Below are positions 24,194-39,697 of a DNA stretch of 64,000 nucleotides, in pieces; position 1 is the stretch's first letter, and each line of letters begins with the position of its first letter. Origin of the DNA: Candidatus Jettenia caeni (GTDB taxonomy: Bacteria; Planctomycetota; Brocadiia; Brocadiales; Brocadiaceae); contig BAFH01000004.1 in the NCBI GenBank assembly GCA_000296795.1, forward strand, positions 1-64,000, given 5' to 3'. The notes beneath the pieces are model-generated. The model had not been told where the DNA came from and made no database searches. It was given only the letters and a program-made list of their open reading frames with translations. The position numbers were made by a program, and so were the translations under genes.

Positions 24194-24547
24194 TTATTCA
24201 CTGCCTTCCGGCACATAGATTACCTTTCCATCTTTTAATCTATATGCTATCCCCAGACGGGTGCCTTCGCCCTGTACACTCTTGTCGGTAACTTTTTCAA
24301 CCTTTACCTGCTTTCCCTTTTTCGTAACAATCTCTATCTGACCATTATCATTTTTCCTCACCGTCGTAATCTCTGTTTTTGGAGAAAGAAGATCAAGCAG
24401 GCTGTATGCGCTGATTAACGCCCCGATAAGACCTACAATAAACACAACTCCAACATCAAAAAGATTCGCCACGCCTGACAGGGGATCTTCCTGATGGAGG
24501 TCAACTTCCTTTCTGATGGCCCTGCGCCTTTTTTTCAGGTATCTCAT
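24194..24547 (-). CDS. DUF2149 family protein (HmuV-like)
   Basis: 117 residues. Basic N-terminus, then DPLSGVANLFDVGVVFIVGLIGALISAY: a single transmembrane helix (about 27-50) with an Asp just at its start, the DUF2149 signature. A soluble beta-rich domain of about 65 residues follows. The topology copies ExbD/MotB: one helix bearing an acidic residue plus a periplasmic domain. DUF2149 genes are typically found beside MotA/TolQ/ExbB-type and CobN-type genes, as here, and in Bacteroidota hmu operons (HmuV). It is last in the minus-strand series starting at the receptor gene at 33327, 160 bases after the channel gene. A role as proton-channel partner is inference. Confidence 0.82.
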   Translation of the reverse strand: MRYLKKRRRAIRKEVDLHQEDPLSGVANLFDVGVVFIVGLIGALISAYSLLDLLSPKTEITTVRKNDNGQIEIVTKKGKQVKVEKVTDKSVQGEGTRLGIAYRLKDGKVIYVPEGSE

Positions 24548-24707
24548 TTTTGCAATTTAGTTCACCGCCGAGATACAGAAGATACGAAGGAATGAAAAGA
24601 TCAGGGAGATGGAAGACTGGAGAGTTGAAAATTTCTTAGTCTCTCATTTTTCCAACTTCTTATCTTCTGATTTTTTTCTCCGTACCCTCTGTATTCTCTG
24701 TGACTAA

Positions 24708-25583
24708 CTACTCCTCATCTTTCATAATACATTCCGTAAAATACTCAAGATTCTTTATATCTTCATGGATCCACCTATTTTTTACCGTAGAAAGAAAATA
24801 AGCGGTAATTCCAATTGCTAACCCCACGACAGTTGTGGTAAAGGCAATGGTAATATTACCTGAAAGTTTCTCAAGATCGCCCTGCGATAATGCTGATAAA
24901 GCAGGTCCCATAGGAATTATCGTTCCCATCAGCCCAAGAGTAGGTCCTGCACGGATCATGAGCCGAAGCTTATCCAGGCTTCTGGTCATTTTTTGTTCCT
25001 TACTTTGCAAGAGGTATTCAACACGGGTCTCTTTGCCACTTTTACTCTTTTTTAATTCACCGGCAAGTTCCTTAAAATATTCCCTAAAATAAAATGGTAT
25101 CTCTGACATTATCCTCCCTGATTCCCCTTCACAAACTTCCCCTGCCTCTCCCTTCCTAATCCCGCCTACCCCTCCCTTACTAGCTCCTCCCCCTGTCTCC
25201 TCTTTCCTGATTTCTCTCCCTGTTCCCTCCCTCCTAACTCCTTCCACTCCCTCCTCTTTCCCAATTCCTCCTACTCCCCCTCCTTCCCTAACTCCCTCCA
25301 TTCCCTCCCCTTTCCTAGTTCCTTCCATTCTCCCCCCTTTCCTAAAGGGGGGATGGGGGGAATTAGAAAATACAGCCAGTTGCGATGGCAGCATAAAAGA
25401 TTCTATAAACTCTTTTACATCTTGCCTGCGAGCCTGCTTCTTTCGTTCTGAATATTCAGAAACAAAACTTCCTGTAGTTATAATTACCCAAATAAAAAAG
25501 ACAACCAATAAAATCATAACGGGATAGAGCATCGCTGATGAAAGAATAGAGAGAATGTTTTGTACCAGGTTGAGAAAACCCAT
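24708..25583 (-). CDS. MotA/TolQ/ExbB-type proton channel (HmuU-like) with repeat insert
   Basis: 291 residues. TM1 at about 16-37 (AMLYPVMILLVVFFIWVIITTG); the C-terminal part has the MotA_ExbB pattern LRLMIRAGPTLGLMGTIIPMGPAL (about 210-235) and TM3 IAFTTTVVGLAIGITAYFLST (about 247-267). It should form a proton-driven channel with the DUF2149 protein to energise an envelope partner. Between TM1 and the channel core, residues about 72-158 are a low-complexity insert of tandem 8-9-residue units such as RKGEGMEGV and REGGGVGGI, encoded by 24-27-bp tandem repeats grown from a dispersed palindromic element (25100-25370). Without it the protein would be of normal family length (about 205). Confidence 0.85.
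   Translation of the reverse strand: MGFLNLVQNILSILSSAMLYPVMILLVVFFIWVIITTGSFVSEYSERKKQARRQDVKEFIESFMLPSQLAVFSNSPHPPFRKGGRMEGTRKGEGMEGVREGGGVGGIGKEEGVEGVRREGTGREIRKEETGGGASKGGVGGIRKGEAGEVCEGESGRIMSEIPFYFREYFKELAGELKKSKSGKETRVEYLLQSKEQKMTRSLDKLRLMIRAGPTLGLMGTIIPMGPALSALSQGDLEKLSGNITIAFTTTVVGLAIGITAYFLSTVKNRWIHEDIKNLEYFTECIMKDEE
25110..25372. repeat. In-frame minisatellite (24-27 bp units) inside the MotA/ExbB-like gene
   Basis: About nine imperfect units reading CCTAACTCC.TCC..TCCCTCC(T)TTTC on the plus strand; the 25330-25370 end is the intact dispersed repeat CCCCCCTTTCCTAAAGGGGGG ATGGGGGGAATTAG. All units keep the host reading frame (multiples of 3). Confidence 0.85.
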
Positions 25584-25764
25584 AGTTCATTATCCTTAAT
25601 AAAAATATTTTACCGTTAAGCCGTAAAAGATGCGAAGAAGCACCTGCATAAAATAATGAAGATCTTTATACAATTACATTAAGCTGCCTTTGGCAGATCG
25701 AAGTAGAGCGAGGTTTTAGCCTTGCCTTACGGTGAAATTCCTATACATTAAACAGGTGAACCCC
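25584..25764. other. Short intergenic gap with repeat fragments
   Basis: Between the CobN-like and channel genes. Contains GTAGAGCGAGGTTTTAGCCTTGCC (about 25701-25725) and the GAAATTCCTATACATT motif (about 25733). No promoter or terminator recognised, so read-through from the upstream gene is possible. Confidence 0.5.
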
Positions 25765-28700
25765 CTATAAAAATCTCTTCCTTACCCATCCATAAAAAAA
25801 GAAACCGATGCATCCTAATACTATTATCATAGCAAACCACGACCTGTTCGATGTATCTACAGAAGAGGATATGCTGCGACGCGCCTCTCCTTTATCTTCA
25901 TTGGCTTTTATCTCTTCCATTTCGAATCCATTCACGACTTCTGTCTTTTCGTCTAAAGATACCTCCGTCTCTTTTCGTTCTCCTAAATCTTCTAATTCCC
26001 TTTTATCTTCTCTTCCTAACGCCCCTAATCCCCCCTTCCCCCCTTTACTAAAGGGGGGTAATGGGGGATTACCAAAGGAGGGTAAGGGGGGATTAGGAAA
26101 GGGGAGTAAAGGGGAATTAGGAGAGGAGGGATCAGGGGGATTAACCGAGGGTGGAGGGGATAGAGAAGTAACTGGCCGCCCGGCTTTACTCAATTGTGGT
26201 ACCTGAGACTGAACAAGCTTATCCATCTCTGTCTTCCGCTCGTTGAGTGTTTTCCCTGTAGCGGTTTTTAAAATCTCAGCATATTGAACCAGGATTTCAG
26301 GATTTACAAGACCTGATGTACTCAAAACGTCCATGGCATATTGTTGAAAAGCTGGGTTATTGCAGGTATGCTCACAGCAGGATACACCATGCTCTAGTAC
26401 CGTTTCCATATATTCCGTCGCCAAAGTTTGTTTCACCTTTTCCGTAGGATGCCAATAATCCTTTCGTACAGCCTCCAGCATACGAGCTGTAAGGGCCTGA
26501 TAAGCATAGGGGTTTTTCTTGCCAAAAAATTCTTTTAAATCCATCCCGTATTTATCTTCAACGTAGACTTCAAATGTCTGCTCCCAACGGGCATCGTCTA
26601 TTGTCTCGGGTACAGTGACCTGCCAGCCCCACATATTCTCAACAAATTCAGACATCTTATTGGCCCCTTCAAATCCCTCTTTCTTCATCCCTTCAATCCA
26701 TTCGGGATTCAGGTAGCGGGACCGCAGTTCCATGCCCATCATCCTATCGATCGGTGTCATCTCCGGCTTTGCCGGGTTCATGATATTTGTAACAACCAGA
26801 CCGGGAGATTTTCCATCCAGTTCCCGAATTGCTGCAGCAAGCCCTCCGGCATACATATAAAAATCATCATTATCAAGTGTCCCGTAAACATTGGTAGAAC
26901 GGCTGTGGACTACCATCCTGGTTCCACTCAATACCATCTTATAGACCTCTTCCATTGGCTCGCCCCACAAACCGTTTCCATAACCGTGGCTCATTCGTTT
27001 CAGATATTCCTCTGCGACCACGGAATCATCTTCCCAGGTCCCGCTTGCACTCACAATCCGTGAGACATTCAAATCGTAACGCCCGGGTGCTTCATCAAAG
27101 ATTCTTATGGCAGCATATTGTTCAGCCTTCTTTCTGGGCCAGCCTTGCTGAACCAATTTCCCGGTCAATTCTATGATATGTTGCCGGACAAGGTTATCTT
27201 CCTCATCAAGCTTCTTTACCATTTGAACAGCCTGATCGATGTAGTGAGTCAACTGCCCAAACATCTCTTCTGCTGCTGAAGAGACGACGATATCGATTCT
27301 CGGACGGCCTAACTCTTCTTTTGGTATGACCTTGATTCCTGTTACCTTCCCCCACTCATTCCAGATGGGCTCAACTCCCAGTAAATAGAGTATCTGGGAT
27401 TCCAGTATACCTTCATGACGTATCGTCTCAGTGCCCCATATAACAAATGATAGTTTTTCGGGATAGTTACCGTTATGTTTCGCCTGATACGTATCAAGCA
27501 GTTCCCGGGCTAATTTCATACCGACCTGCCATGCCTCTTTTTTGGGAATCTTTTCAGGATTAAAGGCATAAAAATTTTTCCCCGTTGGTAAAGAGCTTGG
27601 ATTCCTTACAGGATCATTTCCTGTCCCGGTCGTGATAAACTGCCCATTCATAGATTTCATCATGCTGGATAACTCCCGCTTCGCACCTTCCTGAATATTT
27701 TTATCTAACTCAACAGCAGAAATATCTTTCATAACTTCTTGTATCGCCTGAATGGTAGACGAACGAAGGGATTCATCAGGTGCATTGCCAAAGGTATGCA
27801 ATCCATATGGCATATTTAACTGTTTCATCTCTTTAAGAAATTCTTCAATTTCATGAATAACCTCATGGTCAAGTTTGTGGGAATTTCTCTCCACTTCATA
27901 ATTATTTCTTGTTTCATCATGAGTAATCCCCCCTAACCCCCCTTTAGGAAAGGGGGGATTCTTGGTATCTCCCTGCACCAGGTATTCACTGATATTTATA
28001 TCCTTATCAAGTCCCAGGGCTTTTACTTTTTTTATAATATTTTCCTGATACTGCCCTGCATGCTCGGCACCCTGCTCAAGGGCCTGATCATGACTGCTTA
28101 TCATCTCTTCAAGCCCGGCATATTCATGATACAGTCCACCCTTTTTTAAGGGTGGAATCATGTGGTCTACGATAACTGCCGAGCCTCTTCGTTTCGCAAC
28201 AAGTCCCTCACCAACATCATCTACAATATAAGGGTAGATTACCGGTAAATCCTGAATCAACGCTTCCGGCGCATCATCCCCAGAAAGACCGCCACTTTTT
28301 CCTGGCAGCCATTCATGCGTACCATGGGTACCAAAATGAATAACGGCATCAGCACCAAAACCGTACTTCAGCCATGCATAAACCCCCACATATTGATGAT
28401 GCGGAAACAGGTCTTTGCTGTGAAACATGGCTTCGATATCCTCCATCCAACCCCTCACGGGCTGTGGCAGGATAACAACATTTCCCTGCCTTACCGCAGG
28501 AATAACCATATACTTTTTCTTCTGTTTCGGATCGGTCCATATCATAACATTTGATTCTTCAACCGGCCCCCAATCCGCAGTAACCTCTTTGATGAAATTT
28601 ACCGGCAAATTTCTGATCCACTTCTCGTAATCTTCCAGTGGCAGCAATACGCATTTTCCGTGCTTTACCATTTCATCAAGTTCACCGGGCACCCAATTCC

Positions 28701-30054
28701 CAATGTTTCTCCCGTATCTCAGGGAATTTTCAAGGAGTATTTCTTCATCAATTGCTTCATTACCAATATCATATCCATCATCCTTCATCCTCTTTAAGAC
28801 AGTATCAATACTGGCAAAAACATTTAAATAGCTGGCACCGATATGCTGTTTTCCTGGCGGATAATTCCAGTAGAATATCGCTACCTTTTTATCTCCGTTA
28901 TCTTTTTCCTGTAAATTGATCCAGGCACGTATGCGATTAACAGCCCGGCCGATACGTTCCGGTATCGGCTTTCGCTCCTCAACAAAGAAACCTGTTTCAT
29001 CATCCTTTTCACGGATACGATACGATACGACAGTAGGCTGAATAAGCCCTGCAATCTCAGGGATCGCTAACTGCCAGCTTACTTCCAAAGAACTCAGACC
29101 TTCAGGGTCGTTCTCCCATGTCTTCCCGTCCTTCCCATACACCGTAATCAAATTGATTATTGGTACTCCACATTTTTCCAGCGAATTCACGGCTTTGAAA
29201 TCTGAAAAGCGAAATAAAAATGAGAGTATGCCGGAAACCCTTGGAACCCCTTTGGAATCTACCAATAGTCTCTCGACTGCGGCCCCTTCAGGATACCCAA
29301 ACGCTACAAAGGCATTCAGTCCTTTTTCCTCAAGGGTACGGATTATATCATCCTCCACTTGATTCTGACCCTGCTCACAGAACGATGAATAGGTCAGGAC
29401 TGCAACCCATTTTGCATCTTTCTTACAATAGCCTTTTTCCTTATACCAGCTCTCATATTCCTCAAATGTCTCAAAAAACATCCCTTGTGAGTTGTGGCGA
29501 TGGTAGTAACCATTTTTTAATAACTTCTCTGGCGGCTCTGTCTTTATCCCGGAAACTCCGGCATATTTCTTCAGAGAGAATAGCAGCATGTTTTGGAAAT
29601 TCTCTATCCCGCCGGAATCAAAATACGAGCGGAATTCTTCATCATACGTAAGTCCCAGCTCGATATACTCCTTATCTAAACCTGCAGAGTGGTTTATGGG
29701 TAATATATGTGCCCCGCGGGAAATAGCCTTTTTAATTGCCTCCTGATCAAAACCTGCTTGTGTTGCGGTTGAAATCCGTATCCCCATGATGTCGATAACA
29801 ACGATATCAGCATCTTCAATCTCATGAGGATTGAAACCGGAATCGAGATCGGTAGTACTCACCAGCTCAAAGTCTATGCAGTTCTTAAGGGACGGATATT
29901 CCTTCCAGGTATTTTTTATTGCCTTAATAACGGTAGGAGTAAGGTAGTTTCCCACGATAAAGGTATATTTCAAAGACCTCGCTTCTTCTGCATGGGAAAA
30001 AGGCAGGTAAGAAGTAAATATGATAAACAGTATGAAAATTGCATATCTTCTCAT
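25765..30054 (-). CDS. Membrane-anchored exported CobN/ChlH-family chelatase homologue (HmuS-like)
   Basis: 1429 residues of the CobN/magnesium-chelatase-H superfamily. Core signatures include HFGTHGTHEWLPGKSGGLSGDD (about 575-600), NAPDESLR, FVIWGTETIRHEG (about 905-917), RPRIDIVVSS, DEAPGRYDLNVSR and a C-terminal VTNIMNPAKPEMTPIDRM region. Unlike the cytoplasmic cobaltochelatase it has an N-terminal signal peptide (MRRYAIFILFIIFTSYLPFSHAEE) and a C-terminal TM anchor (about 1402-1422) with RKRFL stop-transfer, so the chelatase domain should lie in the periplasm. Size, topology and neighbours (TonB receptor, MotA/ExbB, DUF2149) match HmuS, the CobN homologue reported to remove iron from haem. 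Cobalamin riboswitches upstream suggest a corrinoid or cobalt substrate here. Three repeat-derived peptides are embedded, the largest at about 1300-1365. Confidence 0.9.
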   Translation of the reverse strand: MRRYAIFILFIIFTSYLPFSHAEEARSLKYTFIVGNYLTPTVIKAIKNTWKEYPSLKNCIDFELVSTTDLDSGFNPHEIEDADIVVIDIMGIRISTATQAGFDQEAIKKAISRGAHILPINHSAGLDKEYIELGLTYDEEFRSYFDSGGIENFQNMLLFSLKKYAGVSGIKTEPPEKLLKNGYYHRHNSQGMFFETFEEYESWYKEKGYCKKDAKWVAVLTYSSFCEQGQNQVEDDIIRTLEEKGLNAFVAFGYPEGAAVERLLVDSKGVPRVSGILSFLFRFSDFKAVNSLEKCGVPIINLITVYGKDGKTWENDPEGLSSLEVSWQLAIPEIAGLIQPTVVSYRIREKDDETGFFVEERKPIPERIGRAVNRIRAWINLQEKDNGDKKVAIFYWNYPPGKQHIGASYLNVFASIDTVLKRMKDDGYDIGNEAIDEEILLENSLRYGRNIGNWVPGELDEMVKHGKCVLLPLEDYEKWIRNLPVNFIKEVTADWGPVEESNVMIWTDPKQKKKYMVIPAVRQGNVVILPQPVRGWMEDIEAMFHSKDLFPHHQYVGVYAWLKYGFGADAVIHFGTHGTHEWLPGKSGGLSGDDAPEALIQDLPVIYPYIVDDVGEGLVAKRRGSAVIVDHMIPPLKKGGLYHEYAGLEEMISSHDQALEQGAEHAGQYQENIIKKVKALGLDKDINISEYLVQGDTKNPPFPKGGLGGITHDETRNNYEVERNSHKLDHEVIHEIEEFLKEMKQLNMPYGLHTFGNAPDESLRSSTIQAIQEVMKDISAVELDKNIQEGAKRELSSMMKSMNGQFITTGTGNDPVRNPSSLPTGKNFYAFNPEKIPKKEAWQVGMKLARELLDTYQAKHNGNYPEKLSFVIWGTETIRHEGILESQILYLLGVEPIWNEWGKVTGIKVIPKEELGRPRIDIVVSSAAEEMFGQLTHYIDQAVQMVKKLDEEDNLVRQHIIELTGKLVQQGWPRKKAEQYAAIRIFDEAPGRYDLNVSRIVSASGTWEDDSVVAEEYLKRMSHGYGNGLWGEPMEEVYKMVLSGTRMVVHSRSTNVYGTLDNDDFYMYAGGLAAAIRELDGKSPGLVVTNIMNPAKPEMTPIDRMMGMELRSRYLNPEWIEGMKKEGFEGANKMSEFVENMWGWQVTVPETIDDARWEQTFEVYVEDKYGMDLKEFFGKKNPYAYQALTARMLEAVRKDYWHPTEKVKQTLATEYMETVLEHGVSCCEHTCNNPAFQQYAMDVLSTSGLVNPEILVQYAEILKTATGKTLNERKTEMDKLVQSQVPQLSKAGRPVTSLSPPPSVNPPDPSSPNSPLLPFPNPPLPSFGNPPLPPFSKGGKGGLGALGREDKRELEDLGERKETEVSLDEKTEVVNGFEMEEIKANEDKGEARRSISSSVDTSNRSWFAMIIVLGCIGFFFYGWVRKRFL
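26020..26165. repeat. In-frame palindromic repeat and 24-bp tandem units in the CobN-like gene
   Basis: CCCCCCTTCCCCCCTTTACTAAAGGGGGG, then about four 24-bp units of GGATTACCAAAGGAGGGTAAGGGG type. Read on the minus strand they encode NPPDPSSP / NSPLLPFP / NPPLPSFG / NPPLPPFSKGG. They sit between the chelatase core and the C-terminal membrane anchor, so they lengthen the stalk. Confidence 0.85.
27925..27966. repeat. In-frame palindromic repeat in the CobN-like gene (second site)
   Basis: TAATCCCCCCTAACCCCCCTTTAGGAAAGGGGGGATT, read in frame as NPPFPKGGLGGIT within the chelatase region. A third, shorter cognate, CCACCCTTTTTTAAGGGTGG, at 28137-28156 encodes PPLKKGGL. Confidence 0.8.
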
Positions 30055-30126
30055 TGATCAGCATCCCCTTGAAAAGGTTACCGGTTAGCGGTCATTGCAA
30101 GCAAGTGAACCAAAGCCAAAAGTAAA

Positions 30127-30363
30127 GGAATAATCCCCCTTGATCCCCCTTTAGAAAAGGGGGAAAATTTCCCCTTCTAAAGGGATAGAGGAGTTATGGA
30201 TTCCCTTTTCTCTTTCTCCTCTTTTATACTCCCCCTTCTACTATTTCTCTCATATATTTCCCCCTCTTGTATTTTCCCCTTCTCTAAAACACTCACACGT
30301 TTCCCTTTTCTAAAACACTCACACATTTCCCCCTTTTTTAAAGGGGGATCAAGGGGGATTAAG
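30127..30363. repeat. G/C-skewed palindromic repeat with internal tandem array
   Basis: Begins TAATCCCCCTTGATCCCCCTTTAGAAAAGGGGG, continues with degenerate CCCTTTTCTAAAACACTCACACATTT-like units, and ends TTTAAAGGGGGATCAAGGGGGATTA: the two ends are inverted copies of each other. The same internal units occur in frame at 11760-11850. Confidence 0.85.
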
Positions 30364-30375
30364 ATACTCCAGTTG

Positions 30376-30526
30376 TAGTTACTCAAAATACTGTTGGATC
30401 ATAGTAGGGGCGAACCTTGTGTTCGCCCACCCTTTGCGCAAATTCAAGCTCTGTGCGTTTTCCCACGACTAGGGCGAACACAAGGTTCTCCCCTACCCCG
30501 GTTTTGCACTTTATTTTGAGTAATTA
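30376..30526. repeat. MITE-like element with 15-bp terminal inverted repeats
   Basis: Ends TAGTTACTCAAAATA and TATTTTGAGTAATTA are inverted with one mismatch. A nested palindrome, GTAGGGGCGAACCTTGTGTTCGCCC (30404-30428) and GGGCGAACACAAGGTTCTCCCCTAC (30472-30496), lies inside. About 150 bp, no coding capacity. A lone copy of the right end is at 15026-15042. Confidence 0.75.
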
Positions 30527-30596
30527 CCCCAGTTATTTCTCCTTAGCGATGGACATAATAGTACCTTTTGGACATCTCCTTGCATCCCTATTGATA

Positions 30597-30992
30597 TTAT
30601 TCACAAGCTCCCTTATTTACCCTGCAGGAACAAACATCCTTTGCGTATTCCCATTTCATACGATCACCCTCATTGAGAATACAGGTATTTGCAAAGGATG
30701 TCGCACGTTTACCGTTGATATGGTAATACCATACTTTGTCGCCAACTTGCCCCTCTACCTTATCGATAGAGGTAACTAAAAAATGTTCACCCTTTTGTTG
30801 TGTTTCAATCTTTGCAACAGATTGAAGTACCTCCAGCGCGGTAATACCTTGTTTCCATGGTATTTCCACCTCACGATTCTGATGTAATCCTCCGGAATCG
30901 ATCTCTACCGTTACATTTCGATTAGCACAAAATGCCGTTGACAAAAAAATGAAAAAGATAAAACCCCCTACTACTCTACCGAAGTGTTTCAT
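30597..30992 (-). CDS. Exported DUF4430 (transcobalamin-like domain) protein
   Basis: 131 residues from the chosen start: signal peptide (GRVVGGFIFFIFLSTAFCA) then one DUF4430 domain: VTVEIDSGG, WKQGITALEVLQSVAKIET, FLVTSIDKVEGQVGDKVWYYHINGKRA and NEGDRMKWEYAKD. DUF4430 (PF14478) is related to the C-terminal beta-domain of transcobalamin/intrinsic factor, which caps bound cobalamin. The C-terminus carries CSC...C. The ATG at 30992 has AAAGGAGGA about 9 bases upstream, overlapping the end of the receptor gene (17-base gap), so the two are co-transcribed under the cobalamin riboswitches. A periplasmic corrinoid- or ligand-binding role is inferred. Confidence 0.82.
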   Translation of the reverse strand: MKHFGRVVGGFIFFIFLSTAFCANRNVTVEIDSGGLHQNREVEIPWKQGITALEVLQSVAKIETQQKGEHFLVTSIDKVEGQVGDKVWYYHINGKRATSFANTCILNEGDRMKWEYAKDVCSCRVNKGACE

Positions 30993-31008
30993 AATTTTTG
31001 TTCCTCCT

Positions 31009-33327
31009 TTAGAATTTAAATTCCAATCCTCCATATGCTGTAAAACCAAGCGAGCCAAAGCCTGTTACCTCTTCGTAATCGTAATCAAAGAGGTTTTCGA
31101 ACCTGATATATGCAGTCATCAACTTTGTAATGTCGTAGCGAGTCACCTGATCAACGGTCCAATAGTTATCCATTTCTCTGCTATCACTATCTATCCTGTC
31201 CCTTGCCATAACTCCGGTTACATTGATACTCAATTTTTCAAGAGGCTGCGTATGCATACCAAGAGTTGCTCTATTTCTGGGTCTGCGGGGTAACTGCTGA
31301 TCTTTCCCCCTATCTGTCGTCTCGGTATATGTGTACGTCCCGATCAATGAAAGCTTAGGAAGAGGTCTGTACGTTACCGTAGACTCAATCCCTTCCGATT
31401 CTGCCCTGGCTACATTTTCTGCCAGAAAACTTCCGTCAGGTTGTACTGCAGCAGTGATCAAATTGGTAAAGTCGTTCTCAAAATATGTAATATCCATAGT
31501 TAGTTTCTCTTTGATGATTTCCTTCTCAATACCGAAGTCCCAGCCCTTACTCTCTTCCGGATTAAGATTGGGGTTACCAAAGAACGGGAAAAAGAGTTCA
31601 TTCAGACTCGGTGCCCGGAAACCTGTCCCCCACGATCCGTGGAACCGGGTACCGATCTCTTCAATGCCATACGATACCGTTGTTCGATAGGTGAGATTAT
31701 TTCCGAACGTGCTGTAATCATCGTAACGGAATCCGGCAGTCCAATTGAATGATTCAAACAGTTCTATTTGATTTTGGAAAAAAACAGAGTTGTTCCAAAA
31801 TCTCTTATCAAAATTGCCAACGTTTTCACCTTCCTGCACCTCATACTCATACCCGAAGGTTACCGTATCAATATCAAATAAAACAAAATCTGATTGATGC
31901 TCCAGCCTCCAGACCCGTGTAGGTATACGAAACTCTCCTGATGTATTTGTGGGATCAAAGCCCTTTAATTCTGTATCGTTAACGGAAATGAGAAACGAAG
32001 GTGTCCAGATATCAAAAAAGGTTTTATTGATCTTTGTAGAAAAAAGGACCTCATCTGTTGTAAGGCGCCGATCGGTATCATCTACCGGACCGACACCGAA
32101 TTGAAATGTATCATATTCCAAATCTGAGTGAGCCGCTCTTACCGTTGCATCGATTCTTCCGTCATCCATAAAATTCCACCCTACCCGTGTAGAGCCGGTA
32201 AAATTCTCATAACCATCCGCTTCATCCCCACTGCTGGCAGAAGAAATACCATGAGTTTTCAAGTAGGAAGCGCCCAGGGAATAATCAAATTTTTCTTTCC
32301 CACCGGAGACACTGGCAGTCTCCCGATAGGTATCATGCATCCCATATTCTGTCCCCACAGTAACGGCCGTATCGCCTGCACCTCTTTTTGTAAAAATATT
32401 GACAACACCGCCAATTGCCTCCGAGCCGTATAAGGTACTTTGCGGACCGCGCAGGATCTCAACCCTCTCAATATTGTCTGTTGTAAGATTTGCAAAATTA
32501 AATGCCCCGGTTGTGGGGCTATTCATCTGGATACCATCGACAAAAACAAGTGTCTGGGCAGAAGAGGCTCCTCGTATGAACATGCTGGTGGTCCCCCCTA
32601 TTCCACCCGTTCTTGCTACTTCAAGTCCGGGTGCCCGGCGTAATACATCAAGGAGCAGCGGGGCCTTGCTATTTTTTATATCCTCCCCGGTAATAACAGA
32701 TACGGAACTACCGGTATTCTTTAATAATTGTTTTGTCCTTGTAGGAGTGATAACAAATTCCTCATTATTACTCCTCTTACCTTCATCCTCCCTTTCTTCC
32801 TTTGTATCCTCTTCCTTATTCTCACCTCCTTCTTTATCTTCATTTTCTAGTTTGTTTTCATCCTTCTTTTCATCGTGATCCTTACCCTCGCTCTTATCCT
32901 CATCCTGATTCTTATCCTTATCTTCATTCTGTATTGGTTCGTCTGGTAATACAGCAGTTTGAATAATTTCGCCTTTAAATATGAGGCTTTGAGATGACGA
33001 TCTTAAATCGTGTTCGGGATCATGTGTCCTTGATATTTTGAGAGACTGATCAGCACTATCATATTCATCTGCAAAGGCATCTTTTCCTGGCAGATCTTTC
33101 TCCACATCAGTATCCTCTTCTTCTGAAAGAGAAGGGAAAGGCACTGTGGTCTGATTAACACTTGCAGTAGCATGGTTTTCTAAAACCTGCTTTCTTAATT
33201 CCAATAACTCTCTTTTCAAATCTTCATTTTCCTTGATAAGTTCTTCTGTCGTCTTTTCTTCAGCATGGCAATACGAGATCAGTATAGGAAAAACCAGAAA
33301 CATAACGCATAAACATTTCATTCTCAT
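31009..33327 (-). CDS. TonB-dependent outer-membrane receptor (BtuB/HmuR-like)
   Basis: About 772 residues: signal peptide (MKCLCVMFLVFPILISYCHAEE), a coiled-coil start (ELIKENEDLKRELLELRKQV), an unusual D/E/K-rich linker (mature residues about 125-195), the TonB box EEFVITPTRTK, plug domain (SVSVITGEDIKNSKAPLLLDVLRRAPGLEV, FIRGASSAQTLVFVDGIQMN, ERVEILRGPQSTLYGSEAIGGVVNI) and a 22-strand-type barrel ending in an aromatic Phe (GGLEFKF). It imports corrinoid or another tetrapyrrole. The longest ORF starts at 33411 inside the riboswitch; the ATG at 33327 with GAGGGG upstream and a proper signal peptide is preferred (33321 also possible). Two cobalamin riboswitches precede it. Confidence 0.92.
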   Translation of the reverse strand: MRMKCLCVMFLVFPILISYCHAEEKTTEELIKENEDLKRELLELRKQVLENHATASVNQTTVPFPSLSEEEDTDVEKDLPGKDAFADEYDSADQSLKISRTHDPEHDLRSSSQSLIFKGEIIQTAVLPDEPIQNEDKDKNQDEDKSEGKDHDEKKDENKLENEDKEGGENKEEDTKEEREDEGKRSNNEEFVITPTRTKQLLKNTGSSVSVITGEDIKNSKAPLLLDVLRRAPGLEVARTGGIGGTTSMFIRGASSAQTLVFVDGIQMNSPTTGAFNFANLTTDNIERVEILRGPQSTLYGSEAIGGVVNIFTKRGAGDTAVTVGTEYGMHDTYRETASVSGGKEKFDYSLGASYLKTHGISSASSGDEADGYENFTGSTRVGWNFMDDGRIDATVRAAHSDLEYDTFQFGVGPVDDTDRRLTTDEVLFSTKINKTFFDIWTPSFLISVNDTELKGFDPTNTSGEFRIPTRVWRLEHQSDFVLFDIDTVTFGYEYEVQEGENVGNFDKRFWNNSVFFQNQIELFESFNWTAGFRYDDYSTFGNNLTYRTTVSYGIEEIGTRFHGSWGTGFRAPSLNELFFPFFGNPNLNPEESKGWDFGIEKEIIKEKLTMDITYFENDFTNLITAAVQPDGSFLAENVARAESEGIESTVTYRPLPKLSLIGTYTYTETTDRGKDQQLPRRPRNRATLGMHTQPLEKLSINVTGVMARDRIDSDSREMDNYWTVDQVTRYDITKLMTAYIRFENLFDYDYEEVTGFGSLGFTAYGGLEFKF

Positions 33328-33367
33328 TCTTCTTTTCCCCTCGAAAATAAGAATTAACCTTAGATTA

Positions 33368-33545
33368 TTCGAATAGGTCTCCTGGCTTCCGGGTCTACCT
33401 ACTTTCTGCACCTTCCCAGAAAGCTGTTTAATCAGTTTAAACCGTTTAAACGGCTTTCCAGTGGCTTATTGCAGATTTCGTCGCCGGTTACAGTTGCGGG
33501 GCAGCTCCTTTTTATGGGATTCCCTTGTATCCGAACTGTTATTAA
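33368..33545 (-). promoter_or_regulatory. Cobalamin riboswitch, receptor-proximal copy
   Basis: Read on the minus strand: GGGAATCCC, the conserved CTGCCCCGCAACTGTAA block, the B12-box GCCACTGG (complement of 33458-33465), a palindromic arm CCGTTTAAACGG, GGGAAGGTGCAGAAAGTAGG, and the closing GAAGCCAGGAGACCT (complement of about 33374-33390). It ends only about 40 bases before the receptor ATG at 33327, with no terminator between, which favours control of translation initiation. Confidence 0.92.
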
Positions 33546-33630
33546 ATAAGCTTAACTACTAATGGATACGGATAAACACGGATAAGGTCAGTGGCCTCAG
33601 CAATAATTTTAAAACGCACTTTTATTGAAA

Positions 33631-33669
33631 TAAAAAAACCCGTTCCTTCGTATAAGAAGAAACGGGTTC
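33631..33669 (-). terminator. Riboswitch-associated intrinsic terminator
   Basis: Minus strand: AACCCGTTTCTTC - TTATAC - GAAGGAACGGGTT followed by seven Ts. The stem is 13 bp with one wobble. It lies downstream of the distal aptamer and upstream of the proximal aptamer, so it is the likely expression platform of the distal riboswitch. Confidence 0.9.
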
Positions 33670-33727
33670 AAATGACCAATCGCAACGCTTCACCTCCTTT
33701 ACTACGAAGAAGTTTCTCAGCAAAACA

Positions 33728-33878
33728 TGACAGGCAGGTCTTCTGACTTAGCGGATCATCCTACTTGCTGCGCCTTCCCGGAAAACCGTTTAATCAGTTT
33801 AAACGGCTTTCCAGTGGCTCTTGCAACATTCGTCACCGAATACAGCGGCGGTACCGTTCCCTTTTCTCCCATTTGAAA
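33728..33878 (-). promoter_or_regulatory. Cobalamin riboswitch, distal copy of the tandem pair
   Basis: Read on the minus strand: AAAAGGGAACGGTACCGCCGCTGTATTCGGTGACG, B12-box GCCACTGG (complement of 33811-33818), CCGTTTAAACTGATTAAACGG arm, GGGAAGGCGCAGCAAGTAGGATGATCCG and the closing AGTCAGAAGACCTGCCTG. The GGATGATCCG ... GAAGACCTGCCTG part closely matches the riboswitch at 39.7 kb, whereas the CCGTTTAAACGG arm matches the proximal copy. Followed by the terminator at 33631. Confidence 0.92.
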
Positions 33879-34103
33879 CCACAGATGACGCAGATTACAC
33901 AGATAAAAAATGATCAATTTATGGAGTCGTTTAAAATGGGAGTTGGGATTCCCTTTTTATCCCGATGGATATATCGGAATACCTGTATGTATCATTTATA
34001 CGAATATTATGCGCTACACAGCATGCTCCTTTCGGGGTCGTGGAATCACTGAATATTGTTGGTAACAAAACTTTCTAAAATTACACTCGGTATTGAACAA
34101 TTC
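33879..34103. other. Promoter region between cobQ and the tandem riboswitches
   Basis: Should contain the promoter of the receptor operon. Includes a common repeat fragment, ACCACAGATGACGCAGATTACACAGAT (33887-33913). The ORF at 33765-34052 overlaps the riboswitch and is not a gene. No clear terminator for cobQ is visible. Confidence 0.5.
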
Positions 34104-35651
34104 TCACCTATAATTTATTGATGAATTTAACATATCGTATATTACGTCCATATGTATATTCCTGCGGACAATATCGGCCAGTTCGTTGTATCGGTGCTCT
34201 TTTATATTTTTAAAATTTACCTGACAGCCGTCTGATGATGTTAAGCCTTTTTTACATTTCAAATAATTAATAAGTTTTGACCGGAACTCATCATTATCAA
34301 AGATACCGTGGATATAAGTACCTATTACGTTGCCATCGGCAGAAACACTTCCATCCAATACATCTACATCCTCTCCGGCCCGTTCAGCAATTCTTGCAAA
34401 ATATCTAGCAGAATTATGTCCATTATATGTTGTCTCTCCCATATGGATCTCATACCCTGTTAATTCATTATCGGCATGGAACAAACCTTCGTGCTTTAAC
34501 ATACGAGCCTTCACCTGATAGGTATGCTTTTCCCTGGCAAAGGTGGTTATCGTGTTTAACAAACCTAAACCCTGAATACTATCCCTGGATGACTCTACAT
34601 GATATGGATCACGAATTTGCCTTCCCAGCATCTGATATCCACCACAAATACCCATTATCATTGTCCCACATTTTGACAGTTTGATAATCTCTTCAGAAAT
34701 GCTCCTTTCCTGCAGAAACAGTAAATCCTCTATGGTGTTCTTTGTACCTGGAATAACAAGCAAGTCCGGCTTGCCAATATCGTTTGCTCTATCTGCAAAT
34801 CTCAATCTCACATCCTTCTCATGGGTAAATATATTGAAATCCGTGAAATTTGATATGCGGGGCAGTTTGATTACTGCAATATCAATATCATAATGCTCTT
34901 TATTGATATCATTACCGTTGTTATACTCAAGCGATACGGAATCTTCGTCATCTATACTCAGGTTGTGGATATAAGGAATTACACCAACAACGGGCTTATT
35001 GATACGACTTTCAAGCATATCGAGTCCGGGCTTTAATATGCTCTTGTCTCCCCTGAATTTGTTAAAAACAACACCTCTCACGAGATTTCTCTCATCCGCA
35101 GTTAATAATTCCAATGTCCCGACAATCCATGCGAAAGCGCCGCCCCGGTCAATATCTGTTACCAGTAATACAGGGGCTGATGCCATCCGTGCCATACCCA
35201 TATTCACAATGTCGCCGTCCTTCAGATTTATTTCGGCAGGGCTTCCCGCTCCTTCAATAACAATAATATCGAATTCAGTTCTTAAGGTATCATAGACTTC
35301 TTGTACGATTGAAATAAATTCATTCTTTTTTTGATAATATTCCTTAGCTGTCATATTCCCTACCGGCTTACCCATAAGAATAACCTGGGAACCGCAGTCT
35401 CCGGTAGGTTTCAGGAGTATCGGGTTCATCTCCACCCTGGGGAGAACACCTGCTGCTTCTGCTTGTGCTACTTGCGCCCTTCCCATTTCTTTCCCGTCTT
35501 TCGTTACAAATGAGTTTAAGGCCATATTTTGGGCTTTAAACGGCGCAACCCGATACCCATCTTGTTTCAGGATACGGCACAGGGCGCATACGAAAATACT
35601 CTTACCCACATGAGATCCCGTACCCTGTACCATAATGGATTTATTTTTCAT
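34104..35651 (-). CDS. cobQ: Cobyric acid synthase
   Basis: 515 residues. Amidates four side-chain carboxylates of adenosylcobyrinate a,c-diamide using glutamine and ATP, giving adenosylcobyric acid. Synthetase half: P-loop GTGSHVGKS (about 11-19), FKAQNMALNSFVT, ILLKPTGDCGSQVILMGK and IEGAGSPAEINL. Glutaminase half: nucleophile Cys in MGICGGYQMLG (about 330) and His in GTYIHGIFDND. Starts 11 bases inside cobD, so it is translationally coupled, and is the last gene of the cbiM-cobQ operon. The symbol cbiP is equally apt because oxygen dependence of the pathway cannot be judged from this gene. Confidence 0.95.
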   Translation of the reverse strand: MKNKSIMVQGTGSHVGKSIFVCALCRILKQDGYRVAPFKAQNMALNSFVTKDGKEMGRAQVAQAEAAGVLPRVEMNPILLKPTGDCGSQVILMGKPVGNMTAKEYYQKKNEFISIVQEVYDTLRTEFDIIVIEGAGSPAEINLKDGDIVNMGMARMASAPVLLVTDIDRGGAFAWIVGTLELLTADERNLVRGVVFNKFRGDKSILKPGLDMLESRINKPVVGVIPYIHNLSIDDEDSVSLEYNNGNDINKEHYDIDIAVIKLPRISNFTDFNIFTHEKDVRLRFADRANDIGKPDLLVIPGTKNTIEDLLFLQERSISEEIIKLSKCGTMIMGICGGYQMLGRQIRDPYHVESSRDSIQGLGLLNTITTFAREKHTYQVKARMLKHEGLFHADNELTGYEIHMGETTYNGHNSARYFARIAERAGEDVDVLDGSVSADGNVIGTYIHGIFDNDEFRSKLINYLKCKKGLTSSDGCQVNFKNIKEHRYNELADIVRRNIHMDVIYDMLNSSINYR

Positions 35652-36735
35652 ATACGTTTTTCATTGCCGTAATGAGCCGCTCATTTTCTTCTCTTGTCCT
35701 CACTGCCACCCGAAAATACTTATCGCTGAGTCCCGTAAAGTTAGAGCAATCGCGAATGGCAATGCCGTACTCCAATAATTGTTCACGCAACAGAGAAGAG
35801 GTCATATCCCTTTTCTTAATCTTAACAAGGATATAATTAGCCGTGGGTTCATACGGCACAAGCCCATGGATACCCGTCAATTCGTTCAATAAAAATACCC
35901 GTTCTTTCAGCATAAATTCCCTGCTTCTGGAAATGAACGCTTCATCTTCCAGGGCAGCCAGAGCAGCGCATTGGGCAAGGGCATTTACCGACCACGGCTC
36001 CTTGTATTTCATCATCTGTTTCACCAAGTCCGCATGGGCAACCAAATATCCGATTCTCAGGCCAGGGAAACCGTAGAATTTTGTAAGCGATCTGACCACT
36101 ATCAAATTACGCAGCATGCCTGCCTCGTGGATAACATGGTATCTTTCAGGCTCATCAACAAAATCTATAAACGCCTCATCTATAACAAATGTTATATCGT
36201 GATGCCGCCTTATCATATCCAGAAGAACAGTCTTTTCTATCAACAGTCCTGTAGGATTATTGGGATTACACAAAAAGACTATCCCTGCCTTGTTATCACG
36301 AAAATACTCCTGGCGATATTCAAAGCGAAAATCATCCTCTTCCTTCAATACATGATGAGTTACTCCCGTGTGGCTGCACTGTAATGCCTCGGCAAACTCG
36401 CTAAAGGTAGGTTGAAAAATAATCCCCCGTGCCGGTTGTAACGAGCGGGGGATGAGGTAAAATAATTCCGTAGAACCGTTCCCTACAATAATCTCATCAG
36501 CAAGATGTCCAATCTTCCGGGCAATATATTCCCGTAAGCTGGAACAGTCAATATCAGGATAATGTACGATATCATCAAAATTTTCCCCTATGACCTTTCG
36601 GACATTTTCCGGATATCCAAGAGGATTAATACTTGCGCTAAAGTCGAGGATGCCATGGTTTCTCTTCTGTACGCTAACGTTGCCGTTCACATAATCCGTA
36701 ATAGGTTTTATATCCCCGCCGTGGCCTTTAAACAT
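35641..36735 (-). CDS. cobD: L-threonine-O-3-phosphate decarboxylase (CobD), PLP-dependent
   Basis: Fold-type I aminotransferase relative that makes (R)-1-aminopropan-2-ol phosphate, the linker of the cobalamin nucleotide loop. The N-terminal HGGD motif (MFKGHGGDIKPI), DFSASINPLGYPENVR, YPDIDCSSLRE, FLCNPNNPTG, FVIDEAFIDF and the PLP-lysine region SLTKFYGFPGLRIGY are as in CobD and its HisC relatives. The operon context (cobQ, cbi genes) favours CobD over HisC. The longest ORF starts at 36774 and overlaps the ATPase gene; the ATG at 36735 begins just before the conserved HGG and is preferred, though its ribosome binding site is weak. Confidence 0.88.
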   Translation of the reverse strand: MFKGHGGDIKPITDYVNGNVSVQKRNHGILDFSASINPLGYPENVRKVIGENFDDIVHYPDIDCSSLREYIARKIGHLADEIIVGNGSTELFYLIPRSLQPARGIIFQPTFSEFAEALQCSHTGVTHHVLKEEDDFRFEYRQEYFRDNKAGIVFLCNPNNPTGLLIEKTVLLDMIRRHHDITFVIDEAFIDFVDEPERYHVIHEAGMLRNLIVVRSLTKFYGFPGLRIGYLVAHADLVKQMMKYKEPWSVNALAQCAALAALEDEAFISRSREFMLKERVFLLNELTGIHGLVPYEPTANYILVKIKKRDMTSSLLREQLLEYGIAIRDCSNFTGLSDKYFRVAVRTREENERLITAMKNVYEK

Positions 36736-36743
36736 AATTTCTT

Positions 36744-37598
36744 TCAGGAAGATGCCGTATGAGAATTCATACATAACTTATCTATCAAAAATTTTCTTGC
36801 CTCTCCTACCGTAAGTGGCAAGCTGCTCATAGAGACATTATTTTCGTCTCTTAAAAGCTGCATTAACTGCGCAATTTGAGGAAGTTCCAGACAAGCCGCT
36901 TTTATCTCATCGGTATTTGAAAATACCTGTTCAGGAGTGCCCGCTCTGAGCACATTACCATGGCGCATAATTGCTAACCTGTCCATATACACCGGCACTA
37001 AATCGACGGTATTTGTTGCCATAATGATGGTAATGCCATGCTTCCTGTTCAACTCTTTCAGCAAGGTCATAATAGAAGTCACACCGGCGGGGTCAAGCCC
37101 GCAAGTAGGCTCATCCAAAACAAGTATCTCCGGTCTCATTGCAAGTACCCCGGCAATACAAATCCGCTTCTTTTGCCCGAAACTTAAGGCATCGATTGCC
37201 CTGTCTGCATATGGCGCCATACCTACCAGCGATAATGCTTCATCTACCCTGTGGATAATCTCCTTTTTTGAGAGATCCAGATTCATCGGTCCAAACGCTA
37301 TGTCATCCCATACTGACGGAGCAAACAACTGATCATTTGGGTCCTGGAATACGATACCCACTCGTTGAAATATTTCTCTGGTTGAATAGTGAGCCAAAGG
37401 CTTTTGCTCAAGCAGTATCTCTCCTGACCGGGGTTTTAAGAGACCATTGAGGTGTTTTAACAGGGTTGTTTTTCCCGATCCATTCGGACCCAGTACAGCT
37501 AAAAATTCCCCTTTCACAATATCCATACAAGCGCCCTGTAATGCCTGTATTCCATCGTGATAGTGGTACCGTATATTTCTGATTTGCATTATTACCAT
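36744..37598 (-). CDS. cbiO: Cobalt ECF/ABC transporter ATPase
   Basis: ABC ATPase energising cobalt uptake. Walker A GPNGSGKTT, Q-loop VFQDPNDQLFAPSV (with the CbiO-type NDQLF), signature LSFGQKKR and Walker B ILVLDEPTCGLDP are all present. Two candidate ATGs (37598 and 37589) lie across the cbiQ stop codon (GTATGGTAATAATG), so translation is coupled to cbiQ; an upstream extension to 37679 is an overlap artefact. With the permease and CbiM below it forms the CbiMNQO importer. Confidence 0.93.
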   Translation of the reverse strand: MVIMQIRNIRYHYHDGIQALQGACMDIVKGEFLAVLGPNGSGKTTLLKHLNGLLKPRSGEILLEQKPLAHYSTREIFQRVGIVFQDPNDQLFAPSVWDDIAFGPMNLDLSKKEIIHRVDEALSLVGMAPYADRAIDALSFGQKKRICIAGVLAMRPEILVLDEPTCGLDPAGVTSIMTLLKELNRKHGITIIMATNTVDLVPVYMDRLAIMRHGNVLRAGTPEQVFSNTDEIKAACLELPQIAQLMQLLRDENNVSMSSLPLTVGEARKFLIDKLCMNSHTASS

Positions 37599-38380
37599 AC
37601 GGGTATAGTCCCTGCGTAAACAAGAAAAGGTGCAAGAAAAAGTATTCCTGTCGTAAAGAGATATTCTCTTTTTCTCCACGGCGATAAGTTTACCATCAAT
37701 ATACCATCTCCTTTATAACCCCTTACCTGCATAGCCTCATAGGTTCGCTCTGATCTTTCAAAGGCACGGATAATAAGCATGCCTCCCAATATTCCAAACG
37801 ATTGTATCGTCTTCTTCCACGATGCATGACCAAGCCGCGATTTTTGAGCAATCCATATTGTGGCAACTTCATCCAGAAACAGGAAAATATAACGGTACAT
37901 AAAAGACAATAATTCAATAACGGTATCGGGTATACGGAACCATTTCAGACCAGTACACAGATGACGTATTGTTGTAGTAAAAGAGAGGAGCATTACGAGT
38001 GAAACACCACCAAGCACCTTGGAACAGATATGGATCCCGCTCCACAACCCTTCTTCTTTCAAAGCCACTTTGTATCCGATGAATGAAAAGGACATCCACA
38101 CCCTCTCGCCCTCATGCAAGCCCTTCATAAGCAGAATGAAAATCGCCAATAACATCGGCAGGAGTAAGTTCCGAAGTATTACAGGAAAAGGAACTTTTAC
38201 AGAAAGGACCAAAACAAACGATGTGAAAAGAAAAAATAATGGGACAGAGATATTCTTTGCCAATACATTTATCGAAAGTAATGAAATGATATACAACAAC
38301 TTTACGCGTATATCAACCCTTGTTAACCAATTATTTTTGCGTGCATATACTTCAGAAAAGGTATGGTGTAAAAATCCCAT
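37592..38380 (-). CDS. cbiQ: Cobalt ECF transporter transmembrane protein
   Basis: 262 residues. The T-component/CbiQ family is seen in the N-terminal RVDIRVKLLYIISLLSINVLA (conserved D-R-K pattern), multiple hydrophobic segments, the coupling-helix region RYIFLFLDEVATIW and RAFERSERTYEAMQVRGYKG with the A-R-G signature that docks on the ATPase. Its stop overlaps the cbiO start. Sits 65 bases after the CbiN-like gene. Confidence 0.93.
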   Translation of the reverse strand: MGFLHHTFSEVYARKNNWLTRVDIRVKLLYIISLLSINVLAKNISVPLFFLFTSFVLVLSVKVPFPVILRNLLLPMLLAIFILLMKGLHEGERVWMSFSFIGYKVALKEEGLWSGIHICSKVLGGVSLVMLLSFTTTIRHLCTGLKWFRIPDTVIELLSFMYRYIFLFLDEVATIWIAQKSRLGHASWKKTIQSFGILGGMLIIRAFERSERTYEAMQVRGYKGDGILMVNLSPWRKREYLFTTGILFLAPFLVYAGTIPVW

Positions 38381-38746: not shown

Positions 38747-39442
38747 TTATACCTGAATCGGTTTTGTATCATCCCTGATTATCCCGAGATTTAACAAAAT
38801 ACCCGGTCTTCTTTTATAAATAAAGACCAGCACAAAGCCCACTACAATACCCTCAACAATACAAAGAACCCCTTGCGAGGTCATCATAAACATCCCGAAA
38901 ATCTCTGCAACCGCTCTAAAAAATGATCCTCCTTTATAAATCACAAGCAATCCTAATTCAAGAGAAGTACCGAAATACGTAAACAGGTCGGAAATTACTC
39001 CGGCCAGAAACCCGCACCAAAACAAACTCAATCCGCATCGCTGCGCTGTTTTAAACGCAAAGTAACCGGAAAAAGAGCCCAGAATACCCATGGAAAAGAC
39101 ATTTCCACCGAGGGTTGTTAATCCGCCATGAGCAAGAAATAAGGCTTGAATAAGTAACGCAATAGCCGCTATAAAAACACTCACAAAAGGTCCTAATAAC
39201 ACCGCACTCATACCAGTGCCACAAGGATGAGATGTCGCCATTCCATTCAGGGCAATTACCGGAATGGGAAAGCATGAGAAGACAAATACAGCCGCTCCCA
39301 GCATGCCTGTCAAAGGCAGATACCCGGGTACCGTTTTTTTCTTTCGTTTTACCTGATATATTCCAACTCCCACAAAAGGGGCTGATACAGCAAACCATGT
39401 AAAAACCCATTGAGGAGGCAAAATTCCCTCTGTTATATGCAT
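38747..39442 (-). CDS. cbiM: Cobalt-specific substrate-capture protein CbiM
   Basis: 231 residues from the chosen start. Begins MHITEGILPPQWV: in CbiM/NikM the N-terminal Met and His2 coordinate the metal, so the start must be here; the longer ORF to 39496 is excluded on this ground and because it would run into the terminator. About seven TM helices; conserved NGMATSHPCGTGMSAVLLGPF and HGGLTTLGGNVFSMG. AAGG lies 8 bases upstream. First gene of the cobalt/cobalamin operon, directly downstream of a cobalamin riboswitch and terminator. Confidence 0.95.
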   Translation of the reverse strand: MHITEGILPPQWVFTWFAVSAPFVGVGIYQVKRKKKTVPGYLPLTGMLGAAVFVFSCFPIPVIALNGMATSHPCGTGMSAVLLGPFVSVFIAAIALLIQALFLAHGGLTTLGGNVFSMGILGSFSGYFAFKTAQRCGLSLFWCGFLAGVISDLFTYFGTSLELGLLVIYKGGSFFRAVAEIFGMFMMTSQGVLCIVEGIVVGFVLVFIYKRRPGILLNLGIIRDDTKPIQV

Positions 39443-39486
39443 AGCGTATACCTTTTCCAAATATAAAATTACTCCGTATAAAAACA

Positions 39487-39521
39487 AAAAACCCATATCC
39501 TCCCGGAGAAGATATGGGTTT
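39487..39521 (-). terminator. Riboswitch-associated intrinsic terminator before cbiM
   Basis: Minus strand: AAAACCCATATC-TTCTCCGGGAG-GATATGGGTTTTTTG. A 10-11-bp stem with a T-run, ending about 45 bases before the cbiM start. Probable expression platform of the riboswitch at 39.7 kb. Confidence 0.9.
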
Positions 39522-39697
39522 TATTTTATACGCATGGGCAACCTAAAACGCCCATAAGACATACAATGAGAAACCACAAACTGCGCAGATAACACAAAAA
39601 ACCTGCCTCAAATTCTTAGCCGGCCATGCAATCTGGAATTTACAGCCACTCTTATACCCTTCACCTTCTTTACCATCGAAGACTACGTGAAGCAATT

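Follow-up and report, generated by a model that had tools for sequence, protein, structure and literature searches.

What would a CobN-type chelatase homologue do outside the cytoplasm, encoded behind cobalamin riboswitches together with a TonB-dependent receptor and a putative proton channel? This question is raised by a locus in the window analysed here, namely the first 64,000 nucleotides of contig BAFH01000004.1 of Candidatus Jettenia caeni (Planctomycetota), an anammox bacterium; they form part of contig 4 in a genome of 4.09 Mb that is nearly complete. A preliminary description of this stretch had proposed a relative of the Bacteroidota hmu operon that imports a corrinoid and uses proton flow to act on it in the periplasm. 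This idea as a whole is partly supported by our analysis, and it has precedents in the BtuS prediction of 2003, as far as that is cited in PMC6460266, and in PMC10100974. According to Rfam and Pfam, the minus strand carries all the parts listed there in the same order, that is, tandem riboswitches, receptor, DUF4430 protein, CobN homologue, MotA/ExbB-type protein and DUF2149. Judged by its sequence, the chelatase homologue is a member of the BtuS branch, sister to HmuS and apart from cytoplasmic CobN, and its substrate very probably belongs to the corrinoids. That the locus as a whole works as a cobalamin-repressed periplasmic corrinoid-processing system has, in our estimation, an even chance of being right.

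Organization and distribution of the locus

The locus comprises the following features.

33716..34000, minus strand: cobalamin riboswitch 1 of a tandem pair (RF00174, 82 bits)
33355..33549, minus strand: cobalamin riboswitch 2 of the pair, directly 5' of the receptor gene (RF00174, 74 bits)
31009..33327, minus strand: BtuB-like TonB-dependent receptor, 772 residues (PF07715, PF00593; TIGR01779, 324 bits; BtuB best in the PDB)
30597..31001, minus strand: exported DUF4430 protein, transcobalamin-like by prediction, 134 residues (PF14478, 38.4 bits; AlphaFold2 model)
25765..30054, minus strand: BtuS-type exported, C-terminally anchored class I chelatase homologue, 1429 residues (PF02514, 1039 bits; HmuS alignment; tree)
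24708..25583, minus strand: MotA/TolQ/ExbB-type proton channel subunit, 291 residues (PF01618, 54.9 bits; alignment to ExbB 5sv0; conservation)
24194..24547, minus strand: DUF2149 protein with one transmembrane helix and a small beta domain (PF09919, 100.3 bits; conservation; model)

Together with a third riboswitch further upstream (90 bits, listed below), both members of the tandem pair score above the RF00174 gathering score of 31.5, and the first of them runs about 120 bases beyond position 33878, where the preliminary description had ended the locus. Tandem riboswitches precede the receptor gene both in the window and in its Brocadiales relatives. The receptor likely starts at the ATG at 33327, because the listed GTG start at 33411 falls inside the riboswitch.

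This arrangement is not due to chance, because many phyla have the same genes together. When 84,980 species genomes were scanned, 79 loci encoding a relative of the chelatase were retained; they come from Brocadiales, Nitrospirota, Desulfobacterota, Geobacter relatives, Verrucomicrobia, Gammaproteobacteria and other groups. As loci that are related cannot be treated as independent, we report counts and not p-values. Within the phylum, DUF2149 was found in 29 of 294 genomes, and nearly all such loci also hold MotA and an exported CobN homologue.

The chelatase homologue belongs to the BtuS branch

The 1429-residue protein has a hydrophobic N-terminus (residues 4-22) and a C-terminal transmembrane helix (residues 1405-1425), in agreement with the signal peptide and anchor described previously. 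Among 71 full-length relatives, the hydrophobic N-terminus is present in 67 and the C-terminal membrane helix in 70. The protein is the sole CobN homologue in the window genome, its closest named relative is that of Candidatus Jettenia ecosi (92% identity), and its nearest solved structure is HmuS (PDB 9d26).

Like HmuS in the Bacteroidota hmuYRSTUV operon, it is an exported, anchored class I chelatase homologue encoded behind a TonB receptor and accompanied by a MotA/ExbB-type protein and DUF2149, and it keeps the catalytic His538 of the HmuS HFG(T/A)HG motif as His577 in HFGTHGTHEW. However, other features that characterize HmuS are missing. At haem site 1, Met79 of HmuS aligns with Met90 but His254 with Phe281, and the neck segment at this region reads ILSFLFRF in the chelatase relatives. 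The HmuS motif LSLDHxxEFMGG, which holds the second active-site His1209 and Glu1212, reads LDNDDFYMYAGG in the Jettenia protein, with D1064 at the position of His1209, and the Met-rich insertion is reduced to 64 residues as compared with 243 in HmuS. The corresponding stretch is LDSNDYYQFQGG in Azotobacter CobN and FDSSDWYAFHGG in Halorussus CobN, so that the DNDD motif position is CobN-like; both this motif and His577 are conserved among the relatives. At the level of the operon, the Jettenia locus has counterparts of R, S, U and V only (as compared with the Prevotella locus L146), lacking HmuY and HmuT, and has a DUF4430 gene and B12 riboswitches in addition. With the site-1 His, the LSLDHxxEFMGG motif and the Met-rich insertion all absent, membership in HmuS was rejected. 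Thus, of the likeness to hmu proposed previously, the homology of the parts stands and the identity of the machine does not: because these three defining features are absent, hmu is a sister system.

The cytoplasmic cobaltochelatase CobNST was considered in the same way. It shares the class I fold, the HxGxHG histidine and a similar acidic motif before GG, whereas CobN has neither signal peptide nor anchor and uses the AAA+ proteins CobS/CobT, none of which is encoded at the Jettenia locus. Azotobacter cobN is adjoined by AAA and VWA genes; phmmer searches with Azotobacter CobS/VWA and Halorussus VWA queries gave no match to such an AAA+ partner in 109 related loci (L033-L141). The window was outside that search, and none of the annotated genes of its locus is of the CobS/VWA type. 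The best score against the NCBIfam CobN equivalog was 939.7 bits (cut-off 1619), and TIGR02257 gave 602.9 bits (cut-off 822). Membership in CobNST was therefore rejected, as no AAA+ partner was found and the scores lie under the equivalog cut-offs.

In a FastTree phylogeny, cytoplasmic CobN and BchH are separated from the exported chelatases, which form a single group (support 99). This group contains a clade of HmuS and LSNHH-motif proteins (support 97) and a clade of DNDD proteins (support 94, with 99 for its core). The latter clade matches the BtuS family that Rodionov et al. predicted in 2003, which, as cited in PMC6460266, stands as a third type of CobN-like protein beside CobN and ChlH, occurs in B12-regulated loci and was predicted to act in metallo-tetrapyrrole salvage; in our data, the distinctness from CobN and ChlH is seen in the tree and the B12-regulated setting in the riboswitches. 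Salvage of a metallo-tetrapyrrole is accordingly what would be predicted for the Jettenia BtuS. Before this work, the family consisted of a name and a prediction; we add the active-site motif, the predicted DUF4430 fold, the linkage to a motor, the context of exported CbiZ and the missing BtuC/BtuF. Operons that resemble hmu but lack HmuY have been described downstream of cobalamin riboswitches by other researchers (PMC10100974), and the Bacteroides fragilis proteins called BtuS were studied with haem only, BtuS2 being HmuS. The CobN of the Trichlorobacter (Geobacter) lovleyi plasmid pSZ77/pGLOV01 was tied to cobalamin by its authors, who saw no CobS/CobT and gave it no role (PMC3403914). That plasmid has the same core gene set with tandem riboswitches, and differs in having DUF2162 and ExbB-ExbD-TonB in the cluster, with no DUF4430 annotated within the stretch covered.

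We also observed a third type of exported, anchored chelatase homologue, which carries the motif LSNHHxYEYLGG, is linked to MotA-DUF2149 and lacks a cobalamin riboswitch (L036, L037, L046, L048, L050, L052, L059).

Evidence for a corrinoid substrate

The riboswitches are the first line of evidence. The preliminary description had suggested a survey of whether such chelatase loci always sit behind cobalamin riboswitches: usually they do, as 37 of the 49 relatives' loci with 6 kb or more of sequence 5' of the chelatase gene have a riboswitch (36 by a Brocadiales-built model or Rfam, and one more, L135, by Rfam), but not always. The concern that homologous loci elsewhere might lack them is not borne out, since loci in other phyla carry them. 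Wherever a riboswitch-bearing chelatase has a readable motif, it is of the DNDD type, or DTDD in one second copy. Nine loci are of the haem type (LSLDH/LSNHH motif), and none of the six with at least 6 kb upstream has a riboswitch at the gathering score or at a clear model score.

The receptor, which has Plug and beta-barrel domains in Pfam, points the same way. Its best NCBIfam model is TIGR01779 (TonB-B12) at 324.1 bits, under the equivalog cut-off of 599.7, as against 167 bits for the haem-receptor model; its best PDB relative is BtuB (158 bits), with PhuR at 73 bits. In sequence, the receptor is thus nearer BtuB than haem receptors.

The DUF4430 protein, which matches PF14478 with 38.4 bits (gathering score 23.8), was modelled by AlphaFold2 with a predicted local distance difference test (pLDDT) score of 78 from an alignment of 16 sequences. 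The model resembles the beta domain of haptocorrin, transcobalamin and intrinsic factor with Z scores of 11.0-12.1 over about 91-99 residues. Of the top 15 rows of the fold search, 14 are cobalamin carriers and the other is 3u7z, a bacterial putative metal-binding protein; the next unrelated entry has a Z score of 6.8. One of these structures, 5np4, is the human transcobalamin beta domain solved with cyanocobalamin bound. The likeness to the three carriers lies in the beta-domain fold of the predicted model, and the Jettenia protein differs in being a beta domain alone with a signal peptide, at 10-18% identity; a sequence-profile search of the PDB gave no useful relative. The structure prediction thus supports a transcobalamin beta-domain fold for this protein, which may accordingly bind a corrinoid. 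Among the related loci, DUF4430 was found only in Brocadiaceae.

Beyond the Brocadiaceae, the related operons also encode DUF2162 (40 loci) and CbiZ proteins, which are often fused to a BtuF-like domain. CbiZ is adenosylcobinamide amidohydrolase. Most of these CbiZ and BtuF-CbiZ proteins bear a signal peptide (L084, L101, L113, L110, L124 and about 20 other loci), which suggests that removal of the corrinoid lower loop also takes place outside the cytoplasm; no paper describing periplasmic CbiZ-BtuF fusions was found in the literature searched. Other frequent neighbours are CbiK (called by Pfam), CbiM/N/Q/O (by the pGLOV01 annotation), and CobA-type, CbiD, CbiE, CobO and CobD proteins (by sequence similarity). 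The pGLOV01 cluster runs riboswitch, riboswitch, receptor, DUF2162, MotA, DUF2149, BtuS, ExbB, ExbD, TonB and receptor, with a riboswitch and CbiMNQO further along.

The riboswitches, the BtuB-like receptor, the CobN-type motif, the exported CbiZ and BtuF-CbiZ proteins and the predicted transcobalamin fold of DUF4430 all speak for the corrinoid substrate proposed previously. The same evidence bears on the view that the locus is a haem-iron acquisition system of the hmu kind that merely came under B12 control. The chelatase, MotA and DUF2149 proteins are homologous to HmuS, HmuU and HmuV, as such a system would have it, but with the HmuS-specific residues and insertion absent, no HmuY at the locus, a receptor of the BtuB kind and corrinoid enzymes in the operons of the relatives, we regard it as highly improbable.

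Two further observations concern these neighbours. DUF2162 (e.g., L084, 8287-9054), found beside MotA in 40 loci, is a polytopic membrane protein in which a PCPxC motif is invariant and a His is conserved, and is perhaps a metal or thiol transporter; when it was considered as a counterpart of HmuT, comparison of its profile with that of one HmuT gave a probability of 0.6%, and a sequence-profile search of the PDB found no useful relative. In Candidatus Brocadia pituitae (L042/L072), the BtuS operon is adjoined by a further operon that likewise has tandem riboswitches and encodes a different TonB receptor together with ExbB-ExbD-TonB.

MotA and DUF2149 as a probable proton motor

The MotA-type protein scores above the PF01618 gathering threshold, and in a profile alignment to ExbB 5sv0 its T221 and T251 align with T148 and T181 of ExbB. 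DUF2149 has an ExbD-like topology, and its one membrane helix contains an invariant residue, Asp31. The essential Asp of ExbD, TolR and MotB sits at the same place. The DUF2149 model is of low confidence (pLDDT 69, predicted template modelling score 0.35), with the beta domain weakly modelled, and a sequence-profile search of the PDB with this protein gave no useful relative.

Published schemes assign HmuU and HmuV as the ExbB and ExbD of the TonB receptor (PMC10100974, PMC12583661). By the same assignment, MotA-DUF2149 in Jettenia would only energize the receptor through TonB, and the chelatase would have no motor; the ExbB/TolQ-type sequence and the ExbD-like topology are in keeping with this. 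Nevertheless, several findings argue against it. MotA and DUF2149 are both present with the chelatase in all 37 loci with complete flanks, whereas separate ExbB, ExbD and TonB genes occur in 12 related loci and on pGLOV01. In a sister Jettenia (L060, 4215-8428), a receptor-ExbB-ExbD-TonB cassette replaces window positions 24377-33298 behind the same tandem riboswitches, with flanks 94-97% identical and a 48-residue remnant of DUF2149 left behind. The genome of Methanosarcina acetivorans, which has no outer membrane, holds both the DUF2149 and the CobN families, a presence seen at the level of the genome. We therefore think it unlikely that the pair serves the receptor only.

Given that an ExbB-ExbD-TonB set is often encoded at the loci as well, MotA-DUF2149 probably serves as a proton motor dedicated to the chelatase, and this is the better of the two readings. 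In our view, the strict linkage, the separate ExbB/ExbD/TonB genes and the replacement in the sister Jettenia together make it likely that the motor is coupled directly to the chelatase. The earlier proposal of proton flow through MotA-DUF2149 acting on the chelatase finds support in this anatomy.

Repeat elements of the form CCCCCCTTT-AAAGGGGGG were also seen at window positions 25155-25365, 26024-26164, 27922-27970 and 30135-30361. Several of those inside the MotA and chelatase coding sequences are in frame and encode PPFxKGG stretches, and there are intergenic copies too.

Cobalt import and the direction of the reaction

Immediately upstream of the BtuS locus lies the third riboswitch, followed by genes for cobalt import and cobalamin synthesis.

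39684..39897, minus strand: third cobalamin riboswitch, 5' of the cobalt-import/cobalamin operon (RF00174, 90 bits)
38747..39496, minus strand: CbiM, substrate component of the cobalt importer (PF01891, 164 bits)
37592..38380, minus strand: CbiQ, transmembrane component of the cobalt importer (PF02361, 146 bits)
36744..37679, minus strand: CbiO-type ATPase of the cobalt importer (PF00005; adjoins CbiQ)
35641..36774, minus strand: CobD threonine-phosphate decarboxylase (TIGR01140, 312 bits, over cut-off)
34104..35651, minus strand: CobQ cobyric acid synthase (NF001989, 650 bits, over cut-off)

The window genome also encodes CbiD, a marker of the anaerobic, early-cobalt pathway, and the organism makes B12 by this route. 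It has no member of the BtuF family and only a sub-threshold FecCD match (no full-length BtuC). BtuF and a strong BtuC match are likewise missing in 9 of the 11 Brocadiales genomes searched, and in 8 of the 10 that keep the system.

The locus encodes a receptor and a putative binding protein, no inner-membrane corrinoid importer is known to go with them, and a cobalt importer controlled by a riboswitch of the same type lies alongside; release of cobalt in the periplasm followed by its import fits this best. We put this direction forward tentatively, as its chance falls a little short of even. The following sequence of events would then apply. When B12 is short, the tandem riboswitches, which are evident in the sequence, would permit expression. 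The receptor, by homology to BtuB, would carry external corrinoids into the periplasm, where the DUF4430 protein could hold them by its predicted transcobalamin beta-domain fold. BtuS, held in the membrane by its C-terminal helix and exposed to the periplasm, would take the corrinoid into its CobN-type site with His577 and Asp1064, a role suggested by homology. MotA and DUF2149, for which the strict linkage and the conserved channel residues suggest an ExbB/ExbD-like proton motor, would drive BtuS in place of the AAA+ proteins CobS/CobT or ChlI/ChlD. Cobalt freed from the scavenged corrinoids would finally be imported by CbiM/Q/O and used in de novo B12 synthesis, by analogy with HmuS and FeoAB for haem iron.

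The missing importer bears equally on the idea that BtuS and MotA-DUF2149 form a proton-driven corrinoid acceptor and translocator that replaces BtuCDF and moves no metal. It would account for the absence of BtuC/BtuF described above, and many relatives add the seven-transmembrane DUF2162 beside MotA. On the other hand, the conserved His577 and CobN-type motif would be needless for a mere carrier, the window genome has no DUF2162, the homologous HmuS acts as an enzyme (PMC12583661), and BtuS is also found beside BtuC/BtuF; we consider such a translocator unlikely. Alternatively, BtuS could insert cobalt into scavenged metal-free or wrongly metallated corrinoids in the periplasm, as CobN does in the cytoplasm. 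The active-site motif is CobN-like, and a similar speculation for Chlorobaculum tepidum is cited in PMC8620254, but the product would still need an inner-membrane importer in a genome where BtuC/BtuF are absent, and the organism in any case has the early-cobalt route for making B12. Insertion is thus distinctly unlikely.

Several points weigh against cobalt release by a motor-driven BtuS. Cobalt is very tightly held in the corrin ring and hard to remove, and to our knowledge its enzymatic removal from corrin has not been described. For the BtuS branch, any enzymatic activity is so far a prediction. Loss of the inner-membrane importer is not general, because BtuC and BtuF accompany the BtuS system in two Brocadiaceae and FecCD permeases are found in most relatives from beyond the Brocadiales, and the search for B12 importers covered BtuC/BtuF, energy-coupling factor (ECF) type importers and BtuM not being searched. 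HmuS needs reduced nicotinamide adenine dinucleotide (NADH) in vitro and a need for HmuU/HmuV was not demonstrated (PMC12583661), so that the motor is not proven necessary even for HmuS. In its fullest form, our proposal is that BtuS and HmuS are periplasmic chelatases powered by MotA-DUF2149 instead of AAA+ proteins, and that BtuS pulls cobalt from intact corrinoids, so that cells mine B12; we regard this as rather doubtful.

As a side observation, a genome with BtuS (L058/L082, same order) gave no CbiD and no BtuF matches, and this organism possibly does not make B12 by the anaerobic route, which would make it a useful case for contrast.

Implications

If the corrinoid-processing reading is right, it would give a testable job to a family that is annotated as CobN across many phyla in organisms without CobS/CobT, and also to DUF2149, DUF4430 and DUF2162. 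It would revise the assignment of HmuU/HmuV as TonB energizers, and it predicts that bacteria have an extracytoplasmic means of recycling cobalt or corrin rings. One version of the system, that on the T. lovleyi plasmid, comes from a cultured organism. Because anammox, nitrite-oxidizing and sulfate-reducing bacteria carry the system, it would bear on the competition for B12 and cobalt in wastewater and sediments.

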